This document shows positions 29,937 to 61,888 of a stretch of 64,000 nucleotides of DNA, piece by piece (positions within the stretch are counted from its first letter, which is position 1; each line of letters begins with the position of its first letter). The notes beneath the pieces were generated by a model that saw nothing but the letters and a program-made list of their open reading frames with translations, did no database searches and was not told the origin of the DNA. The DNA is taken from positions 1 to 64,000 of the IMG/VR virus record IMGVR_UViG_3300001460_000022. One strand, 5' to 3'. The DNA comes from a virus. A program made the translations under genes and the position numbers.

Positions 29937-30533
29937 TTGATTGAAAATCTTACAGATTCAGCCTTAACAGACTTGATTAAGGTCGATAACGACGAAAATG
30001 CTTTAGGTGAGCTAATATCAAGGCATTCTGGAATTTATGTGGATATGCTCAAGAAGTTTGGGATGAACTGTCTAACACAAAATCAAGTGTCTGACATCAT
30101 GAAAGATAAAGATTATACAATTTACAAAGCAGCTTTGGAGTATGATGAGAGCAAAGCTAAATTTTCTACTCATTTAGCGAACAAAACCAAATACATGTGC
30201 TTGACACAAAAGACGAAAAACAAAAATAACAAGGTTACAGCTAATTTTGATGAAGTGCAATTTTGTCAAAAAGACAAATCATCCACGCCAGATGAGTCAT
30301 GTAAAATTAATGATTGTTTTAGTAGAATTTTAAATTTAATTAGCAAACACAAAGACTCTAGGTTAAAAACATTATTTCACGAAAGATATTTTTGTGGAAT
30401 AAGAGGCAAATTAAAACCTTGGAAAGAAGTCGCTAAAAAAATTAATTTATCAGCGCAAGGTTGTATAAATATACATGACAAAGCAATAAAAGAATTTAGT
30501 TATAAAATTGAAAATGAAAAAATTAAATTTTGA
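29937..30533 (+). CDS. RNA polymerase sigma factor, sigma70 family (ECF-size)
   Basis: 198 residues. ALTDLIKVDNDENALGELIS and HSGIYVDMLKKF resemble region 2.1/2.2, YDESKAKFSTHLANKTKYMC matches the region 2.3/2.4 pattern (F-D-x-x-x-x-FSTxxxxxxxxxx), and LFHERYFCGI followed by PWKEVAKKINLSAQGCINIH is a helix-turn-helix like region 4. Such phage factors redirect host RNA polymerase to middle or late promoters. A stop (TAA) immediately precedes the TTG at 29937 and no ATG follows for about 30 codons, so a non-ATG start is required. It is the first gene of the rightward unit, opposite nrdB. Confidence 0.78.
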   Translation: MIENLTDSALTDLIKVDNDENALGELISRHSGIYVDMLKKFGMNCLTQNQVSDIMKDKDYTIYKAALEYDESKAKFSTHLANKTKYMCLTQKTKNKNNKVTANFDEVQFCQKDKSSTPDESCKINDCFSRILNLISKHKDSRLKTLFHERYFCGIRGKLKPWKEVAKKINLSAQGCINIHDKAIKEFSYKIENEKIKF

Positions 30534-31602
30534 GGGGCCAATAAATTCCCTGAGCCTAGGTAATGTTTGCGTAAACTTCCTCAGAGAATTAAAAGAAAAA
30601 GATCTAGATATTGGGCTCTTCCCAGTTGGGGATAAAGGTGAATTTCATGCTTACGATCAAGTGAGTGAAGAATTTAAAAATTGGGTCCACAATATCTCAT
30701 CGACGCGATTAAAAAAATTGCATCGAGAAACTCCCACCTTAAAAGTTTGGCATATAAATGGATCTGAAAAAGTTTTACCTAATCAATATCTTTATACATT
30801 TTATGAAACAGATTCTCCAACAGAAGAGGAAGTAAATATTATAAAATTACAAAAACACGTTTTCTTTTCTTCTTCTGAGTCTGCTGAATGTTTTAAAGAT
30901 AAAGGATGTGAAAATGTCTCATTTATTCCTCTTGGGTTTGATCCAGATTTTAAGGAAATAAAAAAAGAACATTTAGAAGATACTATTCATTTTGGTTTGA
31001 TTGGTAAGTTTGAGAGAAGAAAAAACACTCAAGCTATTATTCAGTTATGGACACAAAAGTTTGGAAATAATCCTAAATATCAATTAACTTGTTTGATTCA
31101 CAATCCATTCTTAAATGAAGATCAAATGAAACAAGCTGTTGGTAACTCTTTAAGTGGTCAGCATTGGACTAATGTAAATTTTTTACCTCATCTTAAAACA
31201 AATTCTGAAGTAAATGATTTTATTAACTCTATTGATATAGATTTATCTGGGTTATCTAATGGAGAGGGTTGGAACCTTCCTTCTTTCAACGCTACAGCGT
31301 TGGGCAAGTGGTCTATTGTAAGTAATTGTTCTGCTCATAAAGACTGGGCCACAGAAGAAAATAGTATTTTGGTTGATCCTGTCGGGAAACAACCTTGTTA
31401 TGATAACTTTTTTTTCAAAGAAGGTCTTCCGTTCAACCAAGGAGAATATTACAAATTAAATGGAGATGATATTTTGGAATCTTTTGATAAAGCTGTAGAG
31501 AAAGCGGGACAACTTAACACAGAAGGGACAAAATTGAGGGACAAATTTACATATTCTAAAACAGTTGATGCTATTTTAGACTATATATACAGTGATTTAT
31601 AA
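30514..31602 (+). CDS. GT-B glycosyltransferase (family 4-like)
   Basis: 362 residues from the ATG at 30514, overlapping the sigma gene by 20 bases (a TTG at 30508 is less likely). GPINSLSLGNVCVNFLREL is the N-terminal loop of GT-B enzymes, FFSSSESAECFKDKGCENV and SFIPLGFDPD form the interdomain region, IHFGLIGKFERRKN the donor-side start, and SGLSNGEGWNLPSFNATALG the E-rich donor-binding segment (G-E-G-W-N-L-P). It transfers a nucleotide-activated sugar; acceptor unknown. It belongs to a second glycosyltransferase group on the plus strand. Confidence 0.85.
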   Translation: MKKLNFEGPINSLSLGNVCVNFLRELKEKDLDIGLFPVGDKGEFHAYDQVSEEFKNWVHNISSTRLKKLHRETPTLKVWHINGSEKVLPNQYLYTFYETDSPTEEEVNIIKLQKHVFFSSSESAECFKDKGCENVSFIPLGFDPDFKEIKKEHLEDTIHFGLIGKFERRKNTQAIIQLWTQKFGNNPKYQLTCLIHNPFLNEDQMKQAVGNSLSGQHWTNVNFLPHLKTNSEVNDFINSIDIDLSGLSNGEGWNLPSFNATALGKWSIVSNCSAHKDWATEENSILVDPVGKQPCYDNFFFKEGLPFNQGEYYKLNGDDILESFDKAVEKAGQLNTEGTKLRDKFTYSKTVDAILDYIYSDL

Positions 31603-31607
31603 ATGGT

Positions 31608-31958
31608 ATGGAAAATGATAAAGAGAATAGTATGAATTACAAATTAAATACACACTTATTGGATAACTTCTTTGATGCATACGGAACAAGTAAACACGCT
31701 GATGTTAAAGACTGCGGCGATGTATACAGTGCTGAATTTGAACTTGCTGGCTTCGCCAAAGATGACATTGATATTACAGCAACAAACGATAACTTGATTA
31801 TCAAAGCTAAAAATAACAAGCGTCAAAAGGAATTTAAATTAAATTTATATGGCGCTGTTTCTGTAGAGAATATTAGCTGCGAAACTGAAAATGGTTTACT
31901 TACCGTCACAATGCCGAAAAAATGCGTTAGTGAACAACGCAAAATCAAAATAAATTAA
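31608..31958 (+). CDS. Small heat shock protein, Hsp20/alpha-crystallin
   Basis: 116 residues. The alpha-crystallin domain covers most of the protein: DVYSAEFELAGFAKDDIDIT, DNLIIKAKN, the strand EFKLNLYGAV and the diagnostic end GLLTVTMPKK. The short tail RKIKIN carries an I-x-I motif used for oligomer assembly. Hsp20 proteins hold unfolding proteins without ATP; in phages they may assist virion assembly or protect the host during infection. Start ATG at 31608, or 31632 preceded by an AAAGAG ribosome site, which would remove eight residues. Confidence 0.92.
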   Translation: MENDKENSMNYKLNTHLLDNFFDAYGTSKHADVKDCGDVYSAEFELAGFAKDDIDITATNDNLIIKAKNNKRQKEFKLNLYGAVSVENISCETENGLLTVTMPKKCVSEQRKIKIN

Positions 31959-32335
31959 TGCCAATATATACTTACAAACACCCCACTGAGGAGAGGTATA
32001 AGGAAGTTATTCAAGGAATGAATGATGATCATACTTACTCTGAAGATGGGGTGAAGTGGGGAAGGGTTTGGGATATCCCTAATGCTGCAATATCTTCAAA
32101 TGCAGACCCATTTAGTCAAAATTCCTTTGTAGAAAAAACGGCTAATATGAAAGGAACTTTTGGAGATATGATGGATTATTCCGCTGAGTTAAGTGAAAAG
32201 AGAGCTTCAGAAAGTGGAGGAGAAGATCCTTTAAAGAAAAAACTTTTTAAAGACTACGAGAAAAGAGTCGGCAAAAAACACGTTGCTGATAAAAAAGTGA
32301 CAGAAAATAAATCTTTTAAGATTGATTTAGATTAA
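31958..32335 (+). CDS. FmdB-like protein without zinc cysteines
   Basis: 125 residues. The N-terminus MPIYTYKHPTEERYKEVIQG follows the FmdB pattern MPxYxYxC..C but has lost all cysteines, so no zinc site is formed. The remainder is charged and low in complexity (AELSEKRASESGGEDPLKKK). Similar proteins occur in T4-like and cyanophages, sometimes called regulatory, with no proven role. It shares one base with the Hsp20 stop, and its stop codon overlaps the stop of the converging virion gene in the palindrome TTAA (32332-32335). Confidence 0.6.
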   Translation: MPIYTYKHPTEERYKEVIQGMNDDHTYSEDGVKWGRVWDIPNAAISSNADPFSQNSFVEKTANMKGTFGDMMDYSAELSEKRASESGGEDPLKKKLFKDYEKRVGKKHVADKKVTENKSFKIDLD

Positions 32336-45232: not shown

Positions 45233-48200
45233 TTATTGTAAATCATCTACCTTGCCTTGTAATAGATCGACCTTGTTTTCTAGAGTAAGTAAATCTTTTC
45301 TTCTATTTTCCATGAATTTAGCGGCTTCTTCGACCAAAGCCGCTGCATTATTTGATGCTGTTAAATTCGATTCTGCAAAATCCTTTACCTTCTCAAATGA
45401 TCCGACAGAGTTTTTTAGTTCGCCTTGTAATGTTTTCAATGCTTCAGCGAAACCCTTTGTAGCCTCATTATTGTGAAGAGAATTAAAGGCTGTTTGAGAT
45501 GCTGCCATTTCTGCCCTTAATGCCTCTTGTTGTTTAATTAATGATTTAGTTGATTGATCTAATTCTGCACCGAAATTAGTTTTTCCTATATTTACGAGGC
45601 TATCTGCAAATTTTGCTCGCTTGTCACCATCTTTTCCCTTTTCATTAACATTCTTATATTGGCCTCGAATAACAGCATTTCTTGCATCATCTATTTTTAA
45701 TCTAAAGGCTTCAAGAGCCATTCCTGTTTTTCCTGTCGCTGCTGCAATTACTTCATTTACATTACCCAACCCTTTTGAATCGAACCCTTCAAATAGTTGG
45801 CCCAGAGTTTGAGTTTCATTATCTGTTCTGTCTTTTTTGTTGATTAGATTAATGGCTCTCATAGCATCTTGAAAAGTCGCAGTAACATCAACTCCACCTT
45901 GTTTTATAAGATGATCACTCAATTTAGATAATCCTTCAGACATTCTTTTACGACCCTCTGATATTTTATCATCATTTTGAGCCATTAGTGCGCTAACATC
46001 TTCCATTTTGTTGAGAAATGATGTGCCAGCCTGTATAGCTGCTTTTTTAAACTTCTCTCCAGCTTCTGCCGCATTTTTTATTAGCTCTTTGGTGTCTTGT
46101 AATCCTAAAGGTTTTTGTCTTTCTGCCGCTAATTTTGCGTCTGCCTTCATTTGATCTTGTCTTAACAAATTAATATTTGCTAATGCTGCATTCTGCTCTG
46201 AGGTTAACATTGTTGCAGATGCAAATGGGCTATCTTTACCTGCCGCCACTGTCAAACCAGATTGGATAGAAGCTCTTTCAGCCATACCCTTGACAGTTCT
46301 TCCCTTTAATCCTTTATTTACTCTTCCTTCAATATCTACAGCCTTTGACCTAGCAACAGCAAGTCTTTCGCTTGCTCTCGCAAGAGCATTATTTGCCTTT
46401 TCTAATTTTTTTTCATAATCCTCTTGCTCTCCAATGGTTTCAAATCTCATTCCAGCAAGGTCTCTTGAAGCTGCCGCTAATCTATCTTGTGCTTGAGATA
46501 ATTTCTCAAGATCTTGTTCTTCTTTTGAATATTCATCCTTTAAGGCTTTCATAGCCTGAACATATTCTTTTTGGATAACGCTAGTGTCTTGACCTGCGGC
46601 TTGCATTTTGGTCATGTTTTCTGTCGCCCTGTCCATAAATCCCTGACTATTATTAAAGCCAAGTCTTCTATTTCTTGATCCTGATGAAGAAACCTCTGCA
46701 TATCTTTGCATAATTTTTGGATCAAGAGGCTCTGGTCCTTGAAACGCTGAAACTAGTCCTTTGCCCAAACTGCTTCCAGCAACCGCACCTACGCCTCCTC
46801 CTAATAAACCTCCAATTGCCATACCAACTGGCCCTCCAAAAGCTCCCGCCATAGCTCCTAATTTAGCCCCTGCCAATCCACCAGCTAATGCTCCTCCTGC
46901 ACCACCAAGTTCTTGATCTCTTTCTTGTGTAGTAATAGTTCCTGCTTTTTCCTGTTGGAAAGCATCGAAAGCACTAAATCCAGCTAAACCAATAGCCAAT
47001 GGGGCTCCACCAAGTTTGCCTAGTTTACCCACCTTTCCCATAGATCTAGTTCTGGCATTTGCGCTGCGTTGAAGATCATTCGCTTTTCTTGTTGCAGTCT
47101 TACGATTAAACCCATCAGACATTAAAGACTTTTTTATAGCATGGCGACTTCGACCGCCCATAGGATCTTTGCTCATAGGCAAGCGACTCTGTATTCCCTG
47201 CCTCACCTTTGAGACTGCTCTAGTTCTACCAACAGAAGCTCCCACACGGCCCATCCCCGCTTGTACTCCTTTACCGACACTTGAAAATGCTCTCCCGCCG
47301 ATTCCTCCTGTGACCATATTAAGAGCAGACATTGCCATTAAAGCTGTCATCGCATGATTTGCGGCATTAGCAACGCCCTCTAGCCCACTATTGGCAGATG
47401 ATTGCGCTCTTGAGGCATTATCAAGAAGCTGAATCTCTTGCATTTTAGTCGAGATACTTTTTTCGCTTGCCAGTATTTGATCAATTTTAACTTCAGCGTC
47501 CATCTCAGTCGCATTAGCTGATTGATCTGTTGCAGAAGTAAGTGAGTTTAAAGCCATCTGCATTGAACCTAAAGCAATAATGAAACCAGAAGCGCCGCTC
47601 ATTAAACCGCCGCCACCCCCTTTTGCGTAATTTGGAATAAATCCTCCCGCAAACATGCCAATACCCTTGCGCTCTCTCTTTATAGCGTCTTGCACCCCGT
47701 TAGGCTCATCTCTTATATTTGTCAGAACCTTTCTTCCCTTATCATCAGAGTGTATCCTCATTAAAGACTGAGGAACGCCACCTCCGTTAGCATAGTTTGG
47801 AACAAATCCTGCCGCAGCAGACATCGGAGCGCCCTTTCTTGGCAAGCTCCTCATGGTTTGTTGAATGAATTTATCTTTTTGCCCCTGACTGTTTTTAAAA
47901 TCACCCCACTTGTAGTTCTTTCCAGTAATCCCAAATATTTCTTCTACAGCTTTATTGCCAGCAATATTAACATCTAAAGTATTGTTTCCTGTTCCAGATT
48001 TTATTCCACCAGTTACAGCCTCGATAATAGATTCAAAAATAGCTCCCCTTAATGCTCCAAAAGCACCTGCTCCACCCTCCTTTAAAACTCTTTGTTTTAC
48101 TTGTTTCGTTGTAAACTTTCTAGGCTGCATTTTTAATTTGCCCCCACTCTTTGAAACAATGCTCTCCATAGAGTTATTAACGCCTCTAGTTAAAGAAGCA

Positions 48201-50344
48201 TCTAGGATTTGATCCATCCTTAACATTCTCCTAAACCCAGAGTCTTGTTTTAGATTGGGGTCTATTCCAGCAACACTTCCATCAAAACCCGAAAACCTTG
48301 ATTCAAGTCTTTTTTTAGATTGGAAATTTGTCTTAAGAGCGCCTTCTAATAGAGCTTGAGCTTGAGGCACAAGCATCAGAGCTTTTTTACTATCTAAAGA
48401 GTCTGCATTATATCTAGGGAAGTTAGCTCCATCTGCCCTCTTAATAGCTCCTTTTCTATAGCCAGAGAGAGCCGCTTGCTCTGCTGATATTTGACCTGAT
48501 TTTATTCTAGGAGATATTTGGGCTGCGCTTAAAGCAGGTCCAGCAAATCCTCCTATACCGAATTTATTATAATTAGGAACAAATCCTCCAGCATAAGATG
48601 GTATTATAGCGGAGTCTTTGCCACCCGCAAAATTGCGGACCTCTGTCTCCTTATTATTCATGATAACTCTTCTCCCTTGAATCGTGCCATCACTTAACCT
48701 AGCTCTAACATCAGGAGGCGCTCCTAGCGCCCTTGCCTCTGCCTCTTCTGCTCTAAATCCCATACTGAATCTACCTCTTTTCCCAGTAAATCCACCTGTA
48801 TTACTAAATCCTGTAACGCCTCTAGCAGCAGCCATATTAGCCAACCCTCTCATTAATTGAGCTTGTTGAGAGAGTAGAGCATTTTCTCTTTGAATTGCAG
48901 ATATAACAGCTTGCTCTTTTTGAGCTTGGCTCATTGTAGTGCTTTCCATCTGCTTCCTCAAACTAGAATCTCTTTGAAGAAGCCCTACTATACCTCCTTC
49001 AATTTGTTTTATTTTCTCTGTTTGACTGCCCATTGAAAATAAAGCCCTCAAACCTTCTGATGCAAATTTAGCAACTAATTTAAAAATTTTAACAAAAGCC
49101 GCTGTAAATATAACAACCGCTGGTCCACTTAAAAAAGAACCTATTGTTTTAAATAAACCTTTTACAAAAACATTCCCTTTCTCTGGATCTAAAGCTGTAT
49201 TTAGAAAATCTGTAACTTTTGTTGCTATACCTACCAAGCCCTCAAGCAATGGACCAAATGTAACAGATCCAATCCTTTCAGCTAGAGAGGTGAGTCCTTG
49301 AACAAGTGAATTTATTTGAGCAGATATAGTTTCATTTAATAATTTATTTTTTTCAAAAGCTTCATTTGTGGCACTGGCAGCGGTCAAAGCAGCTTTTTGG
49401 AATATAGAAGTATTAGAACCCAAATCTTTTAATGAGGCACTAACTACGTTAATTTGGAAAACACCCCCTGCTAATTCCTTAATTTTAGAAACAACAGTGG
49501 GATCAGCGATACCTTCTATTGCATTAGATAAAGCCTGTAATTTTTGGACTCCAGACTGATTTGCATCAATCGCAACTCCTAATTCTTTCAGTTCTGAAAT
49601 CGTTGTTCCTCTTTGTAGCCTTGTAAAAATAGATTTAAATGCGTTACCAATAACAGCACCTCCCCTTGAGGTTCTTTGTTCTACTGCTGTGATTAAACCA
49701 AGTAACTCATTAAAACTCACACCAGCATCCTCTGCTGTGGAACCTGCTCGCTGGAAAGCTGCGGCCAAATCATCCGTTGATACAGCAAAAGCTGTATCCA
49801 CAGCTACCATTTTATTAACAATCTGAGTATGAGAAAGTCCAGCAGATGTAAATCCATTTATAGCAGCAGTAAGAGCCTTTACAGACTTTTCTGCGTCCAT
49901 GCCAGAAATCCTTGTAAGGATAAGGGCTGATTTAAGCCTAGAAGCAGTTTCTTCGGCACTTAAACCTTGCCTAGCTAATTCTGCTGCTCCGTCTGCGACT
50001 GTAGCGAAAGACTGTCCTGTTTCTTTTGCTACTTGAAAGATAGAATTTCTAAACCTATTAAAATTACCTTCTGTTGCTTGAAAAATAGAATTAATTTCTG
50101 TTAATCTTTTTTGAACATCAATAGTTGTAGAAACAAGCTTTTTAAATGATTGCGTAACACCATTAATAACAACTGTGGTGGCACCAAAGGCAAAAACACG
50201 CGCAGTCGAAGCATCCAAAGATTTTTGGAACTCTGAAGCCTGTCCCGTAATCCTGCCTAAAGCCTGTTGAATCTGCTTTGTTGAAGCATTTAGGCTCTGT
50301 GGATTGAGACTTACATTTAAGGATGCATTTAAACTAGTCGCCAT
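45233..50344 (-). CDS. Tail tape measure protein
   Basis: 1703 residues, the largest gene. The N-terminal 330 residues carry the classic tape measure domain: LTEINSIFQATEGNFNRFRN, VAKETGQSFATVADGAAELA, RQGLSAEETASRLKSALILT, VSTDDLAAAFQRAGSTAEDA, LLGLITAVEQRTSRGGAVIG and FKSIFTRLQRG. Hydrophobic/Gly-zipper stretches near residues 900-1200 (GGALAGGLAGAKLGAMAGAF) would insert into or cross the host membrane during DNA entry. Three GGF[VI]PNYA/N motifs occur between about residues 585 and 910. The C-terminal 400 residues are coiled coil (EDLEKLSQAQDRLAAASRDL). It sets tail length during assembly. A palindromic GTGTAA box precedes the ATG. Confidence 0.95.
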   Translation of the reverse strand: MATSLNASLNVSLNPQSLNASTKQIQQALGRITGQASEFQKSLDASTARVFAFGATTVVINGVTQSFKKLVSTTIDVQKRLTEINSIFQATEGNFNRFRNSIFQVAKETGQSFATVADGAAELARQGLSAEETASRLKSALILTRISGMDAEKSVKALTAAINGFTSAGLSHTQIVNKMVAVDTAFAVSTDDLAAAFQRAGSTAEDAGVSFNELLGLITAVEQRTSRGGAVIGNAFKSIFTRLQRGTTISELKELGVAIDANQSGVQKLQALSNAIEGIADPTVVSKIKELAGGVFQINVVSASLKDLGSNTSIFQKAALTAASATNEAFEKNKLLNETISAQINSLVQGLTSLAERIGSVTFGPLLEGLVGIATKVTDFLNTALDPEKGNVFVKGLFKTIGSFLSGPAVVIFTAAFVKIFKLVAKFASEGLRALFSMGSQTEKIKQIEGGIVGLLQRDSSLRKQMESTTMSQAQKEQAVISAIQRENALLSQQAQLMRGLANMAAARGVTGFSNTGGFTGKRGRFSMGFRAEEAEARALGAPPDVRARLSDGTIQGRRVIMNNKETEVRNFAGGKDSAIIPSYAGGFVPNYNKFGIGGFAGPALSAAQISPRIKSGQISAEQAALSGYRKGAIKRADGANFPRYNADSLDSKKALMLVPQAQALLEGALKTNFQSKKRLESRFSGFDGSVAGIDPNLKQDSGFRRMLRMDQILDASLTRGVNNSMESIVSKSGGKLKMQPRKFTTKQVKQRVLKEGGAGAFGALRGAIFESIIEAVTGGIKSGTGNNTLDVNIAGNKAVEEIFGITGKNYKWGDFKNSQGQKDKFIQQTMRSLPRKGAPMSAAAGFVPNYANGGGVPQSLMRIHSDDKGRKVLTNIRDEPNGVQDAIKRERKGIGMFAGGFIPNYAKGGGGGLMSGASGFIIALGSMQMALNSLTSATDQSANATEMDAEVKIDQILASEKSISTKMQEIQLLDNASRAQSSANSGLEGVANAANHAMTALMAMSALNMVTGGIGGRAFSSVGKGVQAGMGRVGASVGRTRAVSKVRQGIQSRLPMSKDPMGGRSRHAIKKSLMSDGFNRKTATRKANDLQRSANARTRSMGKVGKLGKLGGAPLAIGLAGFSAFDAFQQEKAGTITTQERDQELGGAGGALAGGLAGAKLGAMAGAFGGPVGMAIGGLLGGGVGAVAGSSLGKGLVSAFQGPEPLDPKIMQRYAEVSSSGSRNRRLGFNNSQGFMDRATENMTKMQAAGQDTSVIQKEYVQAMKALKDEYSKEEQDLEKLSQAQDRLAAASRDLAGMRFETIGEQEDYEKKLEKANNALARASERLAVARSKAVDIEGRVNKGLKGRTVKGMAERASIQSGLTVAAGKDSPFASATMLTSEQNAALANINLLRQDQMKADAKLAAERQKPLGLQDTKELIKNAAEAGEKFKKAAIQAGTSFLNKMEDVSALMAQNDDKISEGRKRMSEGLSKLSDHLIKQGGVDVTATFQDAMRAINLINKKDRTDNETQTLGQLFEGFDSKGLGNVNEVIAAATGKTGMALEAFRLKIDDARNAVIRGQYKNVNEKGKDGDKRAKFADSLVNIGKTNFGAELDQSTKSLIKQQEALRAEMAASQTAFNSLHNNEATKGFAEALKTLQGELKNSVGSFEKVKDFAESNLTASNNAAALVEEAAKFMENRRKDLLTLENKVDLLQGKVDDLQ
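47621..48589 (-). repeat. Three GGF[VI]PNYA motifs within the tape measure gene
   Basis: The coding positions are 48569-48589 (GGFVPNY, then NK), 47786-47812 (AGFVPNYAN) and 47621-47647 (GGFIPNYAK). Each is flanked by Gly/Ala-rich linker and separates compact segments, so the motif probably marks linkers or a repeated docking element rather than a folded domain. Confidence 0.7.
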
Positions 50345-50363: not shown

Positions 50364-51233
50364 TCAGGTCAAAAAGTCCTCTGCTTTAAGACTCCCTCCT
50401 CTAGCTTTCATTTTCAGTTTTAAATCGTCTATACCGTGAGTAACTTTAGCTTCTCCTTCTTCCTTTTCTTCATATTCTAATATTTTAAGAGGATCATTAG
50501 ATATTTCTTCTGGAATTCTAACATTCTTCATTTTATTAAATAATGCATTAGATAATATTAATAGATTTTTTTGAAAAATTGTAATGGTATTAAAATTTAC
50601 ATTAAATAATTTTAATGGGTCTCTATACTGTGCTGCGTAAATGTCAAAAAACCCTCCAAAAAAAGAAGCTCCTAAAACATTTTCTTTACTGCTTAATTCG
50701 GCATATCTTTTAAAAAGAGCTTCTGTTATATCAGTATCAGATACTTCTTCTAAATTTTCTGAGAATTGCTTATCTAAATAAACACATTGGCAAACCATTT
50801 TTTTTACTTTTTTTATTTCAGATAAGCTTTCTGCGCTGTAAGAGATTATTCTTTTTCTTTTAAAACTTAAATCTTGCACTTCTTTTCTTTGATTTTCAAT
50901 TTGACTATTGAAAACCTTTCTTTGAGTAGGATCTTGAATTTTAGCTAAAGCTGTAGTAGATTTTTTTATCATCCATTCCAAAGATTTTATTTTTTCTTCT
51001 TCAGAATCAGACCAAGATCCTGCTTTTTTAGCTTCTTTAATCAACTGATCTTCCGTGTGGATTCCAGATTTTATAGAATTAGCAACATCCGTTTTTTGTT
51101 CTTCATCAAGTTGAAGAATTTCCGTAAACAAAAAATGTTTAAAATAGTAATTTTTATCAGAGACCTTTAACACGCTAAAGCCTCTTGATATATCTAAAAG
51201 ATCTCCAGAATAATTTTTTTCATTATTCCTCAT
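50364..51233 (-). CDS. Tail assembly chaperone candidate (second of two)
   Basis: About 290 residues from the ATG at 51233 (a TTG at 51257 would add eight residues). Charged and helical (EEEKIKSLEWMIKKSTTALA, NQRKEVQDLSFKRKRI), with a central motif FKRYAELSSKENVLGASFFG. Position between the tail tube genes and the tape measure, and overlap with the preceding helical gene, is that of the G/GT-type chaperones that coat the tape measure before tube assembly. The reading frames differ by +1 rather than the usual -1, and I see no convincing slippery site, so a frameshift fusion is not supported. Confidence 0.6.
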   Translation of the reverse strand: MRNNEKNYSGDLLDISRGFSVLKVSDKNYYFKHFLFTEILQLDEEQKTDVANSIKSGIHTEDQLIKEAKKAGSWSDSEEEKIKSLEWMIKKSTTALAKIQDPTQRKVFNSQIENQRKEVQDLSFKRKRIISYSAESLSEIKKVKKMVCQCVYLDKQFSENLEEVSDTDITEALFKRYAELSSKENVLGASFFGGFFDIYAAQYRDPLKLFNVNFNTITIFQKNLLILSNALFNKMKNVRIPEEISNDPLKILEYEEKEEGEAKVTHGIDDLKLKMKARGGSLKAEDFLT

Positions 51234-52053
51234 TTTCTTCAGGTTCGTCCTCTTCAAACAAATCGTCTAAAGATTTTTGAATACTTTCCTGATCTTTCCC
51301 AAGTTGATTATACCAAATGCTTGAGACTTTAATCAACGTATCAAAAGCTGCTTCATATAGTTTTCTTAATTTTAAAAAATCTATTTCACTTAATCCTGTA
51401 TCTTCTACAGAAACTTCATCTTCTTCATCTTCTTGTAAAAGCAAAAGTAAATTTCTTTTACTCTTATAAGATTCTCCTTGGAAAATGGGGAATAATTGAG
51501 TTCTATCTTTATCTTTAACTTTATCTTCGTAATAAGAAAAATTTAAAACCAACCATTCTATTAATTTTTGTTCAGCTTTCGCATCTGCTGTTTGACCGAA
51601 TTGATCTCTTAATGAAATCTCGTATTCAAAAATAGTCTTTTTAGTTTCTGCAAAAGTTTTTTCTGCTTTTTTTAATTTGGCACTTTGTTCTTCATTTAGA
51701 GATTCTGATCCTCCAAAAAATTCAATAGTTCTCGCAGCGTCAATATTTTCTAAAACAATTTCACTAACTGTTTCCGAGGTTGATTTTGAAGTGATCCCAC
51801 CTAAATCACCCATCTTTTTAGCGAGCATGGCTTTTGTCAAAAACCCAGCATTAATTAGTTCATTAAATTTTTGTCCATAAAAGAAATCCGCTTCTTCCCT
51901 TTGAACGATTGTTGGTTTAATAAAAACAATCCTATTTTTAATGGTTTTAGTTACTCTTTTTGTAGTCTCGACAGGACCATCCTTTGTCTTTTTAATGTGA
52001 GGGACTTCAGATTTAACCTCTCTTTTAACATCAAATGAATATAACTCTTTCAT
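51223..52053 (-). CDS. Tail assembly chaperone candidate (first of two)
   Basis: 276 residues from the ATG at 52053 (the longer upstream reading overlaps the previous gene and starts with unlikely sequence). Begins MKELYSFDVKREVKSEV, then a conserved-looking TIVQREEADFFYGQKFNEL and GFLTKAMLAKKMGDLGG, a pattern seen in other large phages just ahead of tape measure genes. The C-terminus is acidic (DDLFEEDEPEENEE). It overlaps the second chaperone candidate by 11 bases. Chaperone role inferred from position and composition. Confidence 0.62.
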   Translation of the reverse strand: MKELYSFDVKREVKSEVPHIKKTKDGPVETTKRVTKTIKNRIVFIKPTIVQREEADFFYGQKFNELINAGFLTKAMLAKKMGDLGGITSKSTSETVSEIVLENIDAARTIEFFGGSESLNEEQSAKLKKAEKTFAETKKTIFEYEISLRDQFGQTADAKAEQKLIEWLVLNFSYYEDKVKDKDRTQLFPIFQGESYKSKRNLLLLLQEDEEDEVSVEDTGLSEIDFLKLRKLYEAAFDTLIKVSSIWYNQLGKDQESIQKSLDDLFEEDEPEENEE

Positions 52054-52084
52054 TGATAATATTATATGAAATATTAAGGCAAAA

Positions 52085-53341
52085 TCAAAATTTAAAAAAT
52101 GAAAATGAGTCAATATCGAATATTTTTAGTTTAAATCCCGTGTTAATACTCGCTGCGCTATCAGAAGCAGCTATTAATGTGTTTATATCCGAAGTAAAGT
52201 GAACGTAAGATGGCCCATCAGTAGTAGTAAAGTAACTAGTTAAAAGAACAGCCTCTCCTCCAATTATTAAAAATATTGGATTCCCAGAATCTTGAACTGC
52301 AAGAAGTTCGGCTAAATTATCATAAGGATCTGGCACATTCGTGGGATTAGAATCAAAAACAGCTTCTTTTATTGTAAGGCTATTCGCAGCAGTCAATACG
52401 TTTAAAGTTAATTTTTTTTCAAAATCAAAACCTGCTACTATGGGCCTGTAATATTCTTCAATTATATTTACGCTTGTTGTTTTTAAATAATCATTAATAT
52501 TTGAAGGCAAAACCTTTGAAAAAGAAATATTATCTGGAAGTTCTTCGTTTAAAACTCCCACAGAGATATCTTGACTAGCATGATCTGCTGTAGCAGAAAT
52601 TGTTCGTGAAACCCAAGTTCCATCAGGATCAACAAAATAAACAACATCAGAAGCTTGCAGTTTAAAATGCTTCGCCATTATAATATGTCTTTTTGTAATT
52701 GCTGTTGCTCCTCTTTTTCTAAAATCTAATGGACTACCATGCCCACGATTGTTCCAAACAACAACTGAGGTGAAATCAATATCTTTACCCCAAAAATCAG
52801 TTGAACGAGCAGCATTAAATCCTCCCCCGTTTAATGTTCCATTCGGGTCTGTAAAAGATGTTAACATACTAGCATTAGCAGCTACACTCATTGTGTTGGT
52901 GATATTATCGTTAATTTGTGAGGTAGAATGTTTTGCTAAAGAGTTTTTTGATTGGCCTGTTACAGAAAGTGACAGTTCTGAAGTGCCATTTTTATGAAAA
53001 GATAAAGAATTTATACTTTTATCAGTGGCTCCATTGGATTTTCCTGTTACATCTAACCCATTCGCGATTAAAGTCTCATCTTTGTAATAAGAAAATGTGC
53101 TGTTCGCATAATCATAATGGGCTTCTAAATCAAAAGGAACTCCACTTTGATAACCTCCAAAAAAGTTTCCGCTTTGATCAAACAAATAACCGTCTGCCCC
53201 AGAAAATGTTATTAAATTAGAAGAGTAAAATTTTCCACTCTCAAATAAAGATAATTCAAAACCACTATCAGGACTATTTATAACCAAAGATATGTCATAT
53301 ATAGCATTTTGATAATCGGAAAAACTTTCATTTATAATCAT
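52085..53341 (-). CDS. Tail protein with a trypsin-like serine protease domain
   Basis: 418 residues. The first 130 read like a beta jelly roll (ISLVINSPDSGFELSLFESG, YLFDQSGNFFGGY). From about 180, a chymotrypsin-fold protease is visible: GATAITKRHIIMAKHF with catalytic H225, VVYFVDPDGTW, HASQDISVGVLNEELP with D258, and VQDSGNPIFLIIGGEAVLL with S352 in the D-S-G-N-P form of the GDSGGP loop. All three triad residues occur in the right order and spacing. The enzyme would be incorporated in or near the tail and could process tail proteins or cut a host surface protein. It overlaps the tail-tube paralog gene by four bases. Protease activity is predicted, not shown. Confidence 0.78.
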   Translation of the reverse strand: MIINESFSDYQNAIYDISLVINSPDSGFELSLFESGKFYSSNLITFSGADGYLFDQSGNFFGGYQSGVPFDLEAHYDYANSTFSYYKDETLIANGLDVTGKSNGATDKSINSLSFHKNGTSELSLSVTGQSKNSLAKHSTSQINDNITNTMSVAANASMLTSFTDPNGTLNGGGFNAARSTDFWGKDIDFTSVVVWNNRGHGSPLDFRKRGATAITKRHIIMAKHFKLQASDVVYFVDPDGTWVSRTISATADHASQDISVGVLNEELPDNISFSKVLPSNINDYLKTTSVNIIEEYYRPIVAGFDFEKKLTLNVLTAANSLTIKEAVFDSNPTNVPDPYDNLAELLAVQDSGNPIFLIIGGEAVLLTSYFTTTDGPSYVHFTSDINTLIAASDSAASINTGFKLKIFDIDSFSFFKF

Positions 53342-54195
53342 TGTATTATGGGGAAGTAGTAAGAAAAGTTTACTGTAGTATTATCGTCTAAATTAGCGGA
53401 TTCATCAACATTTTCTAAACAACAACCACTAGTAATAAAATCCATTAAAGAGTTCCCAAGATCATCTTTTAAATCAATTTTAATTACTCCGCTATCACAA
53501 ACAAGGCTAGAAAGATTTAATCCTGTTACAGAATTTTTAATCATACTTACTTCTAAAGACCCTCCTGCTGGTAGATCTGGATATCTAAAACTAGGATTCC
53601 TTTGTCCTATTCTGGTGACATTTTTTCTAGGCAAATCTACGGAAATAGAAAAATCTTGTAAATATAAACTTTGAGTATTTATTCCTTCCTGACCATTTGT
53701 TACAGTCGTAATCTCTATTTTTTGAGGTCTAGCAAAACCCTTTATAAAATCATCATTTGTTTGCTCCTCTATACTTATAGCTCCAGCATCACTAAAAGTT
53801 GCTCCAACACCCTCGTATGTTGCTCCCCCTTTTATAAGTTCTCCTACACTAGCATTTATCGAATAACTCGTTAAAGAAGCATCGTTAATTATTGTAGACC
53901 CAACAGTGTCTTTAATTTGAAAATCAAATTTTCCAGTAGTAAGAAACCCTCCATGTCTTTGTTGAAATTGATAAAATGGATCAACCCCAGTCGCCCCTGT
54001 AGTTAAAAGCATTTCCATGTCTAGCGTAGTTGTTTGATTGGCTGTTAAAACTCTTTCAGCTATATTAATAGTTCCCAATCTTTGAATATCTTGAACTTCT
54101 TTTGGGGTCGAGAAAGATAAAGAATTTACTGCGGGTATGCGTGAACCATCAATAAATAATTGAGTGTCACTGGAATGTATTCTATCTACAGCCAT
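53338..54195 (-). CDS. Tail tube-like protein, paralog of the major tail protein
   Basis: 285 residues from the ATG at 54195 (MAVDRIHSSDTQLFIDGSRI); a reading from 54252 would run through a terminator hairpin. RLGTINIAERVLTANQTTTL, SYSINASVGELIKGGATYEG, LYLQDFSISVDLPRKNVTRI, FRYPDLPAGGSLEVSMI and DDNTTVNFSYYFPI line up in order with the major tail protein's matching segments. A second, smaller tube-like protein may form the tube end, a completion ring or a minor tube component. A GTGTAA box lies ten bases before the ATG. Confidence 0.78.
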   Translation of the reverse strand: MAVDRIHSSDTQLFIDGSRIPAVNSLSFSTPKEVQDIQRLGTINIAERVLTANQTTTLDMEMLLTTGATGVDPFYQFQQRHGGFLTTGKFDFQIKDTVGSTIINDASLTSYSINASVGELIKGGATYEGVGATFSDAGAISIEEQTNDDFIKGFARPQKIEITTVTNGQEGINTQSLYLQDFSISVDLPRKNVTRIGQRNPSFRYPDLPAGGSLEVSMIKNSVTGLNLSSLVCDSGVIKIDLKDDLGNSLMDFITSGCCLENVDESANLDDNTTVNFSYYFPIIQ

Positions 54196-54211
54196 ACACC
54201 CTACTTTACAC

Positions 54212-54241
54212 AAAAAAGCCCCGCATTTCTGCGAGGCTTTT
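54212..54241 (-). terminator. Intrinsic terminator between the two tail-tube genes
   Basis: AAAAGCC/GGCTTTT plus CGC/GCG with one C-A mismatch and a six-base loop, flanked by A and T runs on both sides. It follows the major tail protein gene by 21 bases and should keep its expression above that of the downstream genes. Confidence 0.85.
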
Positions 54242-54262
54242 CTGGTTAACATTTATACCATA

Positions 54263-55507
54263 TTAATATGGACCGAGCGCATTGAGCTTATCATATAAGT
54301 TTGTTGTCGCATTATAATTGTCTGATGGAGCATTACCTGCTGCATTTGCACAATTACCAGTGTAAAATAATCCTTGGCCTGTAACGGTAGGACCACCGAT
54401 TTGAGCAGAGAATGTCAAGTCAACAGTCTCGTTATCGTCTAGTCCGACAGAGAACGCCTGAGAATCAAGAGATGCATTTTCTAGTCTGTATGCATGTTGA
54501 GCTACTCCAGCGTCATCTTTAACAGTGATAGTTACATCTGTTGTATCGTCTCCAGCAGTTCCTGTAAGAACCATATCAAGAGCACCTGTAGAGAAATTTT
54601 TAAGAAGCGCACTTACACTCATGGTGACATTGATTGGGAAATCCAAAGGTCTTGCAACTGCTCTCTCAGCACCAAGTGCAGAGATATTAGTTCTAGACAT
54701 CGGAACCTCAATTGAACAACTTTGAATGTGCATGTCAGACATGTCTGTTCCTCCCCACGACCATTTCTTTCTATCAAAACCGATAGTAACATCTTCTGGA
54801 CGAAGAACTAAAACACCCATATCTCCAGTGCTAGGAGCATCAAGTCTATATTGACCAGTGTCTGCCCTTGCTCCATCAGCATTTAATGCTGGGTTATATA
54901 ATCCAGAACTACTTGTTTGAATCTGAATATTTTGAGCTTCACCCTCAATATCCACTCTTGGAATTTCTCCAACAGCGAAATTAACACTATAACTATTGAT
55001 GATGCAGTTTCCAAGGGAGACGACATCAGAAGAAAGTCTTTCTGCGGGGCTAAAAGCTGATGCTTTAAAAGCATCCTCCCCCTCTTTAACAGTAAGAACA
55101 TAAAGGTTTTTTTCTCTTTTTTGAGCGTCTTCTGTCATCACACCTGAAATAAATTGTGATTTGACTTTAGGCTCAGTGAGTGTGTCAAGCCCTACTGTAT
55201 TGAAACCCAAAGTAGCTTCGTTTTCTCCATTCCCCAAGTAATATCCAAGTGAGAAAGTGGGGTTAAGTTCTGACATAGTTACTGTCCCGATTCGTGCTAA
55301 CTGACCAAACTCTCTGACATCTTGTCTTGCACCTGCAAGATCAACATCAAAAGAGAAGGTATCGACACGATGAAGCTGTGTTGGGATAAATCCCTTAACC
55401 CCCGCTAGGGCGGCGCTACCACCAAACTCTGTTTGGACAGGCAGAAGTCCTGTAGGAGAAGCATAAACAGCCTTGCTTTGTGAAATTACTCTTGTTCTAG
55501 AAGCCAT
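54263..55507 (-). CDS. Major tail (tube) protein
   Basis: 414 residues. Lies between head-tail connector genes and the tape measure, has balanced composition with few charged runs, and is bracketed by its own leader and a strong terminator, all expected of the abundant tube subunit. Regions such as QLARIGTVTMSELNPTFSLG, INSYSVNFAVGEIPRVDIEG, SCSIEVPMSRTNISALGAER, PINVTMSVSALLKNFSTGAL and DDNETVDLTFSAQIGG recur in the shorter paralog. The leader carries two GTGTAA boxes (55550-55545, 55540-55535). No host-binding Ig domain is obvious. Confidence 0.82.
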   Translation of the reverse strand: MASRTRVISQSKAVYASPTGLLPVQTEFGGSAALAGVKGFIPTQLHRVDTFSFDVDLAGARQDVREFGQLARIGTVTMSELNPTFSLGYYLGNGENEATLGFNTVGLDTLTEPKVKSQFISGVMTEDAQKREKNLYVLTVKEGEDAFKASAFSPAERLSSDVVSLGNCIINSYSVNFAVGEIPRVDIEGEAQNIQIQTSSSGLYNPALNADGARADTGQYRLDAPSTGDMGVLVLRPEDVTIGFDRKKWSWGGTDMSDMHIQSCSIEVPMSRTNISALGAERAVARPLDFPINVTMSVSALLKNFSTGALDMVLTGTAGDDTTDVTITVKDDAGVAQHAYRLENASLDSQAFSVGLDDNETVDLTFSAQIGGPTVTGQGLFYTGNCANAAGNAPSDNYNATTNLYDKLNALGPY

Positions 55508-60388: not shown

Positions 60389-61888
60389 TTAATTTGATAC
60401 TTCTACAGAGAAGTTCTTCTTTAGCCTTTCGACAAAAGAAACCTGTTCACTAGCTTCAGCGTTGTTATTAGGGATGGATGCCTCTGCCTCATCTCCCTCA
60501 ATCTCAAGCTCTTCCTCTGACTCTTCTCCCGCAGCTTCTACCTCTTCAGGGTCATCCCCTTCTTCGCGGCTAGCTACTGCTTCTTCGATACGAGCCTTAA
60601 TCTCAGCTTCTTTAGCTTCGATATTTTTCTTCAGCTTGTGTGCAAAAATCACCTCAAGCTTCTCCTTATAATTATTGAAATCTTCTTCAGAAGAACCAAG
60701 TTCTTTAACTTCAGCAGTGACTAAAGAAATCTCTTTTTCATTAAGATCGTAATCACTATCAACAAAGTTCATGCGGTCGTTGAAAAGATCTACGGCAGCT
60801 TTTGCCTCCACTTCTCCTTTGAGCGCATCAAGTTCTTCTTTTGTCTGCTTGAAAGAGTCTTGTAACTCTGCAAGCTCTGCTTCAGCTTTCGCTTTAGCTT
60901 CCTGCTCAACTTCCATCTTGGATGTCCAAGACTCGTTGTGTTCTACGAGAGTATCACGGATAGTCTCGCTAACAGTTTTAGCCTCTGAGCCTTCCTTCAC
61001 TGCTGAAGCAACACTCTTGGACAACTGAGTAATAAGTTGGTCGAATTGTTCTTTATCCATATTAAAAATGTTTTTTAATTTGTTTGACTTTACATTAATA
61101 TTAGCGTTTCGGGAAATTTTTTCTAATTTTTTATTGCTGTCTTCTTCTTTTGTTGTATAGACACCCCTTACAGCAGCAGCAGGGTTTCTTGTTAATGCTG
61201 CTCCTAATGGGTAAGTTTGACCAACAATTAATCTATTAACAGGCTTGCCTTCTGGATCTTCTCCTTTGCCGCCTAAACCCTTGACATATTGCTTTAGGTC
61301 TTCTTTTTCGGCACCTGTCGCAATAGTAGAATCTTCTAAAAATTTAGATCCAACTGCTACTTCAAATTCTTTAAATGCTAACTCCCAACTAGTAGAAATA
61401 CTCTGATAGGTTTCTTCATTTTTTTCTGAAGCATCTTCAATAGCTTCCGCTAACTTTGGATAAACTGATTTATAAATTAAGCCAGCAGCATTCATATAGA
61501 ATGGCTCTTTCTTGTCGGCGTAGGATTCAATGTCGTTATTTTTAAAATCAAATTCTCTATCAGAGAAGGACGCATTAATCATATGACCGACGATTTTATC
61601 TTTTTTGTGTTCGATGTTAATGGGCTTATTGATAAATCTTTTTATAGCAGCTATTGCAGTTTTTGCGTCGATGCCATCGCCATTTTTGTTGAACTCATTA
61701 ACTTTTGCTAAGTTAAAAACAACTGGTAAAACGTCGATATTTTGATCTGGGTCAAAACCTTCTGGCAACAGAGATTCTGCGGCCTCTTGGATATTCGCCT
61801 GAGAGAGTCCGAATAGTTCAAACTCTTCATCTTTTATCTCCCTTACCTTGCCTTCAAATAAACAAATATTAAAATCATCCAATGACAT
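60389..61888 (-). CDS. Prohead protease fused to scaffolding protein
   Basis: 499 residues. Residues about 55-250 look like a capsid maturation protease: VVFNLAKVNEFNKNGDGIDA, PINIEHKKDKIVGHMINASF with the likely catalytic His, and EETYQSISTSWELAFKEFEV with the likely Ser. From about 275 to 470 a long acidic coiled coil (EVEQEAKAKAEAELAELQDS, KLKKNIEAKEAEIKARIEEA) is the scaffold, ending in a basic amphipathic stretch VERLKKNFSVEVSN that often binds capsid subunits. Protease-scaffold fusion lets the scaffold be removed after head assembly. An internal ATG at the start of the scaffold part lacks a ribosome site. The portal stop and a GTGTAA box lie just ahead. Confidence 0.82.
   Translation of the reverse strand: MSLDDFNICLFEGKVREIKDEEFELFGLSQANIQEAAESLLPEGFDPDQNIDVLPVVFNLAKVNEFNKNGDGIDAKTAIAAIKRFINKPINIEHKKDKIVGHMINASFSDREFDFKNNDIESYADKKEPFYMNAAGLIYKSVYPKLAEAIEDASEKNEETYQSISTSWELAFKEFEVAVGSKFLEDSTIATGAEKEDLKQYVKGLGGKGEDPEGKPVNRLIVGQTYPLGAALTRNPAAAVRGVYTTKEEDSNKKLEKISRNANINVKSNKLKNIFNMDKEQFDQLITQLSKSVASAVKEGSEAKTVSETIRDTLVEHNESWTSKMEVEQEAKAKAEAELAELQDSFKQTKEELDALKGEVEAKAAVDLFNDRMNFVDSDYDLNEKEISLVTAEVKELGSSEEDFNNYKEKLEVIFAHKLKKNIEAKEAEIKARIEEAVASREEGDDPEEVEAAGEESEEELEIEGDEAEASIPNNNAEASEQVSFVERLKKNFSVEVSN

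Follow-up and report, generated by a model that had tools for sequence, protein, structure and literature searches.

The window, a stretch of 64,000 nucleotides of an uncultured, apparently marine phage (IMG/VR virus record IMGVR_UViG_3300001460_000022), contains a minus-strand tail operon in which one gene appears to combine a small tail protein with a protease. That gene (52085–53341, minus strand) encodes 418 aa from an ATG start, with the tail protein domain in residues 1–128 (52958–53341) and a predicted trypsin-like protease of the chymotrypsin fold in residues 129–418 (52085–52957). It is coupled to a second tail-tube paralog (53338–54252), whose stop overlaps its start as ATGA, and that paralog adjoins the tail tube gene (54263–55507). 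After the protease gene come a putative tail assembly chaperone (51223–52113, likely start 52053) and a putative second one (50364–51257), both named from position and synteny, and then the tape measure protein (45233–50344), which matches Pfam PF10145 at 2.6e-24 as well as PHROG tape-measure families; all of these are on the minus strand. An earlier sequence-only reading had described a serine protease with H225, D258 and S352 as its triad, encoded between a tube paralog and the tail chaperones. The open reading frame and all three residues are where it had put them, and the tail context is supported, with the chaperones being putative. A candidate prohead protease, read by eye at 60389–61888, is separate from this gene.

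The neighborhood varies in other ways among relatives. In loci L090 and L091, both tube paralogs are about 410–450 aa and are closer to each other in sequence. In L103 (15427–16962), the second tube paralog appears by eye to continue into cadherin/Ig-like repeats, so that this slot region has a further kind of C-terminal decoration. Elsewhere in the window, a block of glycosyltransferase-like, HSP20-like and FmdB-like genes (30508–32335, names by eye) is conserved in the phages described below as type B.

An AlphaFold2 model of the window protein was built from eight sequences, with a mean pLDDT of 53. The pLDDT is 71–89 in residues 211–280, around the His and Asp, about 58–69 around Ser352, and 26–52 in the N-terminal domain. 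This domain is predicted to be all-beta; the “jelly-roll-like” label given to it in the sequence-only reading is tentative at such low model confidence. Foldseek gives 580 PDB matches to this model at E ≤ 1e-3, the best at E = 4.5e-7; the best 50 of the 580 are chymotrypsins, trypsins, elastases and clotting proteases, the exceptions being three Umb1 particle chains. The sequence-only reading had proposed a structure prediction as the check on its protease, and family S1 proteases dominate the outcome. In the PDB, a profile made from 23 phage sequences alone scores best against bovine chymotrypsin, at E = 0.0072 (1dlk) and 0.0085 (1acb), 1dlk being delta-chymotrypsin in the Foldseek listing and labeled “Thrombin heavy chain” in the profile search. 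The alignment puts phage “ilfakHyq” on chymotrypsin “vvtaaHcg” and GDSG on GDSG, and the Asp segment has a weak match to trypsin at E = 0.73. These E-values are weak by themselves, yet the right segments are matched, and from the model we regard the C-terminal part as a chymotrypsin-fold (PA clan) serine protease with the double beta-barrel.

This is a protease family that current Pfam trypsin and PHROG annotation does not see. Neither Pfam Trypsin (PF00089) nor Trypsin_2 (PF13365) matches the window protein or its relatives, and profile scans of the same proteins against Pfam, PHROGs and NCBIfam returned no protease family. The weak matches were to DUF3005 (0.5) and, for the relative L116, to the nematode trypsin-like DUF316 (0.02). 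A comparison by HHalign with three Deg proteases of E. coli gave Prob 1.4, with too few sequences on either side, and by eye there is no candidate for a zymogen-type N-terminus (Ile16-like).

The protease alignment has 23 sequences with identities down to 22%, and the residue is the same throughout in only nine columns: R218, H219, H225, D258, L264, D351, S352, G353 and P355 in window numbering. His225 (52667–52669) aligns with chymotrypsin His57 and Ser352 (52286–52288) with Ser195; Asp258 (52568–52570) is the proposed Asp102 by the weak trypsin alignment. The order of the three is that of known enzymes. Because all three fall among so few invariant columns, and because the fold search returns chymotrypsins, the triad is more than a chance arrangement. 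H219 was considered as the catalytic His, since its RHI resembles the Deg “TNNHV”, and was ruled out by the chymotrypsin alignment. The dN/dS in the protease part is 0.17–0.39 for pairs with unsaturated dS, and by this measure the part is under purifying selection.

The claim that the triad has standard motif contexts holds for its order and local context; the nucleophile motif, in contrast, is VQDSGNP in the window and not GDSG. The QDSG is unique to the window copy and puts Gln350 (52292–52294) at the oxyanion-hole position of Gly193, where all 22 aligned relatives have the Gly of GDSG. Active enzymes with a residue other than glycine at 193 exist naturally, for example mesotrypsin with Arg193, so Gln350 does not by itself mean inactivity. 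The activity of the window copy may be weaker or altered, and our confidence for that copy is lowered. At the presumed base of the S1 pocket, which we guess to be six residues before the Ser, the residue varies by eye (L, Q, T, D, V, A and K among them), so one specificity cannot be assigned. The Gln and the variable S1 position would fit a pseudo-enzyme, in which the chymotrypsin fold served purely as a binding domain. We consider that improbable, given that the triad and a DSG.P motif stay unchanged across 23 sequences in which the majority of columns vary, and that Gly193 is retained in every aligned relative of the window copy. The protease is probably active.

How regularly the protease accompanies the tail genes was surveyed with the major capsid protein, which has 468 relatives in IMG/VR; 80 loci were kept, and 43 loci from the phage clade have a readable slot gene. 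Where the region is present, the capsid gene is followed, after further genes, by the tube, in some cases the second tube paralog, then a small gene, a pair of chaperone-like genes, and the tape measure gene. In 39 of the 43, the small gene is 123–155 aa and consists of the N-terminal domain only, which identifies this domain, by homology, as a small tail protein particular to the clade and usually found by itself. The other four continue into the protease (L029, which is the window; L036, the same as L003; L038, the same as L013; and L055, the same as L002), so that a domain of about 130 aa is followed by a cassette of about 290 aa. Loci L030 and L031 have a capsid protein 99% identical to that of the window, and their slot gene ends at 130 aa; in the DNA alignment with them, the protease stands out as a cleanly bounded addition ahead of the gene that follows. 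The protease was not found elsewhere in 22 non-carrier contigs, several of them fragments, by the same type of search that detected carriers.

These counts bear on whether the enzyme is a tail maturation protease that processes the tape measure, the tube or some other tail protein as the tail is assembled, which was one role suggested from the sequence. Cleavage of the tape measure in the course of assembly is known from some phages, and the place of the gene, overlapping the stop of the tube paralog and leading into the chaperone-like and tape measure genes, would suit such a role. An assembly protease would be conserved across the clade, and this one is missing from 39 of the 43 readable loci, including the two beside 99%-identical capsids, where the tube, chaperone-like and tape measure genes are orthologous. 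A podovirus record has the module too, and in large phages it lies among fiber-like genes. Processing of tail proteins is accordingly disfavored; it was dropped as the main reading after this survey, and we give it little chance. With so many loci lacking it, the protease is best seen as an accessory module that assembly does not need.

Mapping the carrier label requires four changes on the capsid tree; the N-terminal domain tree requires two, or possibly one. Because the carriers are scattered on the first and clustered on the second, exchange between phages is indicated, and the gene has probably moved among related phages by recombination. The clade itself (L029–L108) is large and apparently marine, with its 468 capsid matches in IMG/VR and no close deposited isolate genome; neither its capsid nor its tube protein leads to a member among 50,697 deposited phage genomes.

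Successive scans put the protease family in IMG/VR at about 30 loci, duplicates included, and the module is anchored in several ways. In type B contigs (L004, L012, L014, L015 and L018), it is the C-terminus of a protein of about 655 aa, of which the first 360 residues or so share homology with the tail tube of the window (BLASTP E = 3e-16). The model of this tube part is poor, with a pLDDT of 35, yet its top Foldseek matches are phage tube, Dit, neck and baseplate proteins, including lambda gpV and gpL. The fusion gene follows a lambda gpM-like gene (PF05939, above cut-off), which places it in the tail-tip region, and the contig of L004 (G002) has a separate tube gene of its own. Between L004 and L015, pS is 0.12 in the protease and 0.36 in the tube part; the lower synonymous divergence of the protease hints at recent exchange. 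Also in G002, a type B contig, a group of four tail genes with the tube among them (L023, 8253–11431) is inverted relative to the neighboring genes.

More distant members have N-termini with a Big_2 Ig-like domain, fn3 and DUF285 repeats, lectin-like domains, or tail-fiber-like domains (the lectin and some of the fiber labels by eye), and often lie, by eye, among tail-fiber-like genes of 60–200 kb contigs. One large phage contig (L121/G010) has the module in two copies, at 98880–99650 and 101492–102190. A Baseplate_J search in ten carriers matched in one only. Location in tail modules and fusion to tail-type domains, the marks of a tail enzyme, are thus both found. Among 84,980 bacterial and archaeal genomes, one set of patterns brought up no homologs, though cellular relatives may exist, and no relatives were found in plasmids.

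The module is always C-terminal to another domain and follows a partly conserved linker, an arrangement that could also belong to a self-cleaving module, one that, once folded, frees itself or its N-terminal domain in the manner of an intramolecular chaperone or a detachable spike. However, no conserved candidate cleavage site is seen at the junction, the linker is weak in distant members, and, to our knowledge, known self-cleaving tail modules use folds other than chymotrypsin, so we think self-cleavage has a low likelihood. One distant relative, in L117 (5647–6540), has a lipoprotein-like N-terminus in place of the tail domain and lies downstream of a T7-like tail fiber gene, so not every member need be bound to the virion. 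It lends something to the idea that the enzyme acts in lysis, or that it releases progeny by cutting receptors carried on debris or vesicles. Most members, in contrast, are joined to tail-type domains and not to secretion signals, and we consider a release function unlikely.

The reading we favor, with a probability of about 60%, is that of a tail-anchored protease displayed on the virion that cuts a host-surface protein at adsorption, an optional device of host range or entry. The fold, the invariant triad, the place in the tail operon, the cassette that is present or absent, and the fusions to several tail-type proteins are shown; virion incorporation, catalysis and a host-surface substrate are all things we infer. 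The N-terminal domain would fix the module to the tail, as a tube/ring, Ig-like, lectin-like or fiber N-terminus would do elsewhere, and, as the phage adsorbs, the Ser352-His225-Asp258 triad would hydrolyze at least one protein located at the host surface or close to it. Candidate substrates are a protein receptor, a surface layer, a pilus, or a secreted protein. Digestion of a host surface protein on entry was the other role suggested from the sequence, and it is preferred because the module recurs on tail-fiber-like, Ig-like and tube/ring proteins. Taken more broadly, we see about an even chance that these sequences represent a modular chymotrypsin-fold protease family, as yet without a name and seen only in phages to date, that is swapped between tail proteins as a host-surface “proteolytic depolymerase” and gained or lost between near-identical phages. 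If this is true, proteolysis joins polysaccharide digestion as a means to open or choose a host. Since the cassette is present or absent between phages with a 99% identical capsid protein, the host-range hypothesis is directly testable.

Compared with family S1 of the PA clan, the chymotrypsins and trypsins, the phage module is alike in fold and in the order and local context of His, Asp and Ser. It differs in being fused to tail domains, in its variable presumed S1 position, and in having no identified zymogen N-terminus. A chymotrypsin-like domain in a structural protein of tailed viruses is a shared feature with enzymes discussed as capsid maturation proteases; the present one is on tail proteins, in a genome where the candidate prohead protease is a different gene. 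A trypsin-like serine protease has been annotated in T4-like alphaproteobacterial phages of cluster N (PMC10783043). We find no homology to it by tblastn with five family members against 50,697 deposited phage records, a search in which only MW202510 matched. That record (MW202510.1, an uncultured podovirus from Manatee Spring) encodes a member of the same family, UOF78081.1, annotated as a hypothetical protein, with the triad conserved at about 24% identity; the module is in the tail region beside beta-helix-like and fn3 proteins, and its N-terminal domain is different from the window's. The open-access papers searched contained no tail-borne trypsin-like family.

Sugar-cutting and cell-wall-cutting enzymes are known on phage tails, and the closest parallel is with these virion depolymerases and tail lysins of fibers, spikes and evolved Dit proteins, which likewise are optional, exchangeable enzymatic modules on tail-tip or fiber proteins. 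The likeness to polysaccharide depolymerases in particular lies in the optional presence, the many anchors, and the exchange between phages. The difference is in the enzyme, a glycanase, lyase or peptidoglycan hydrolase there and a chymotrypsin-fold protease here.
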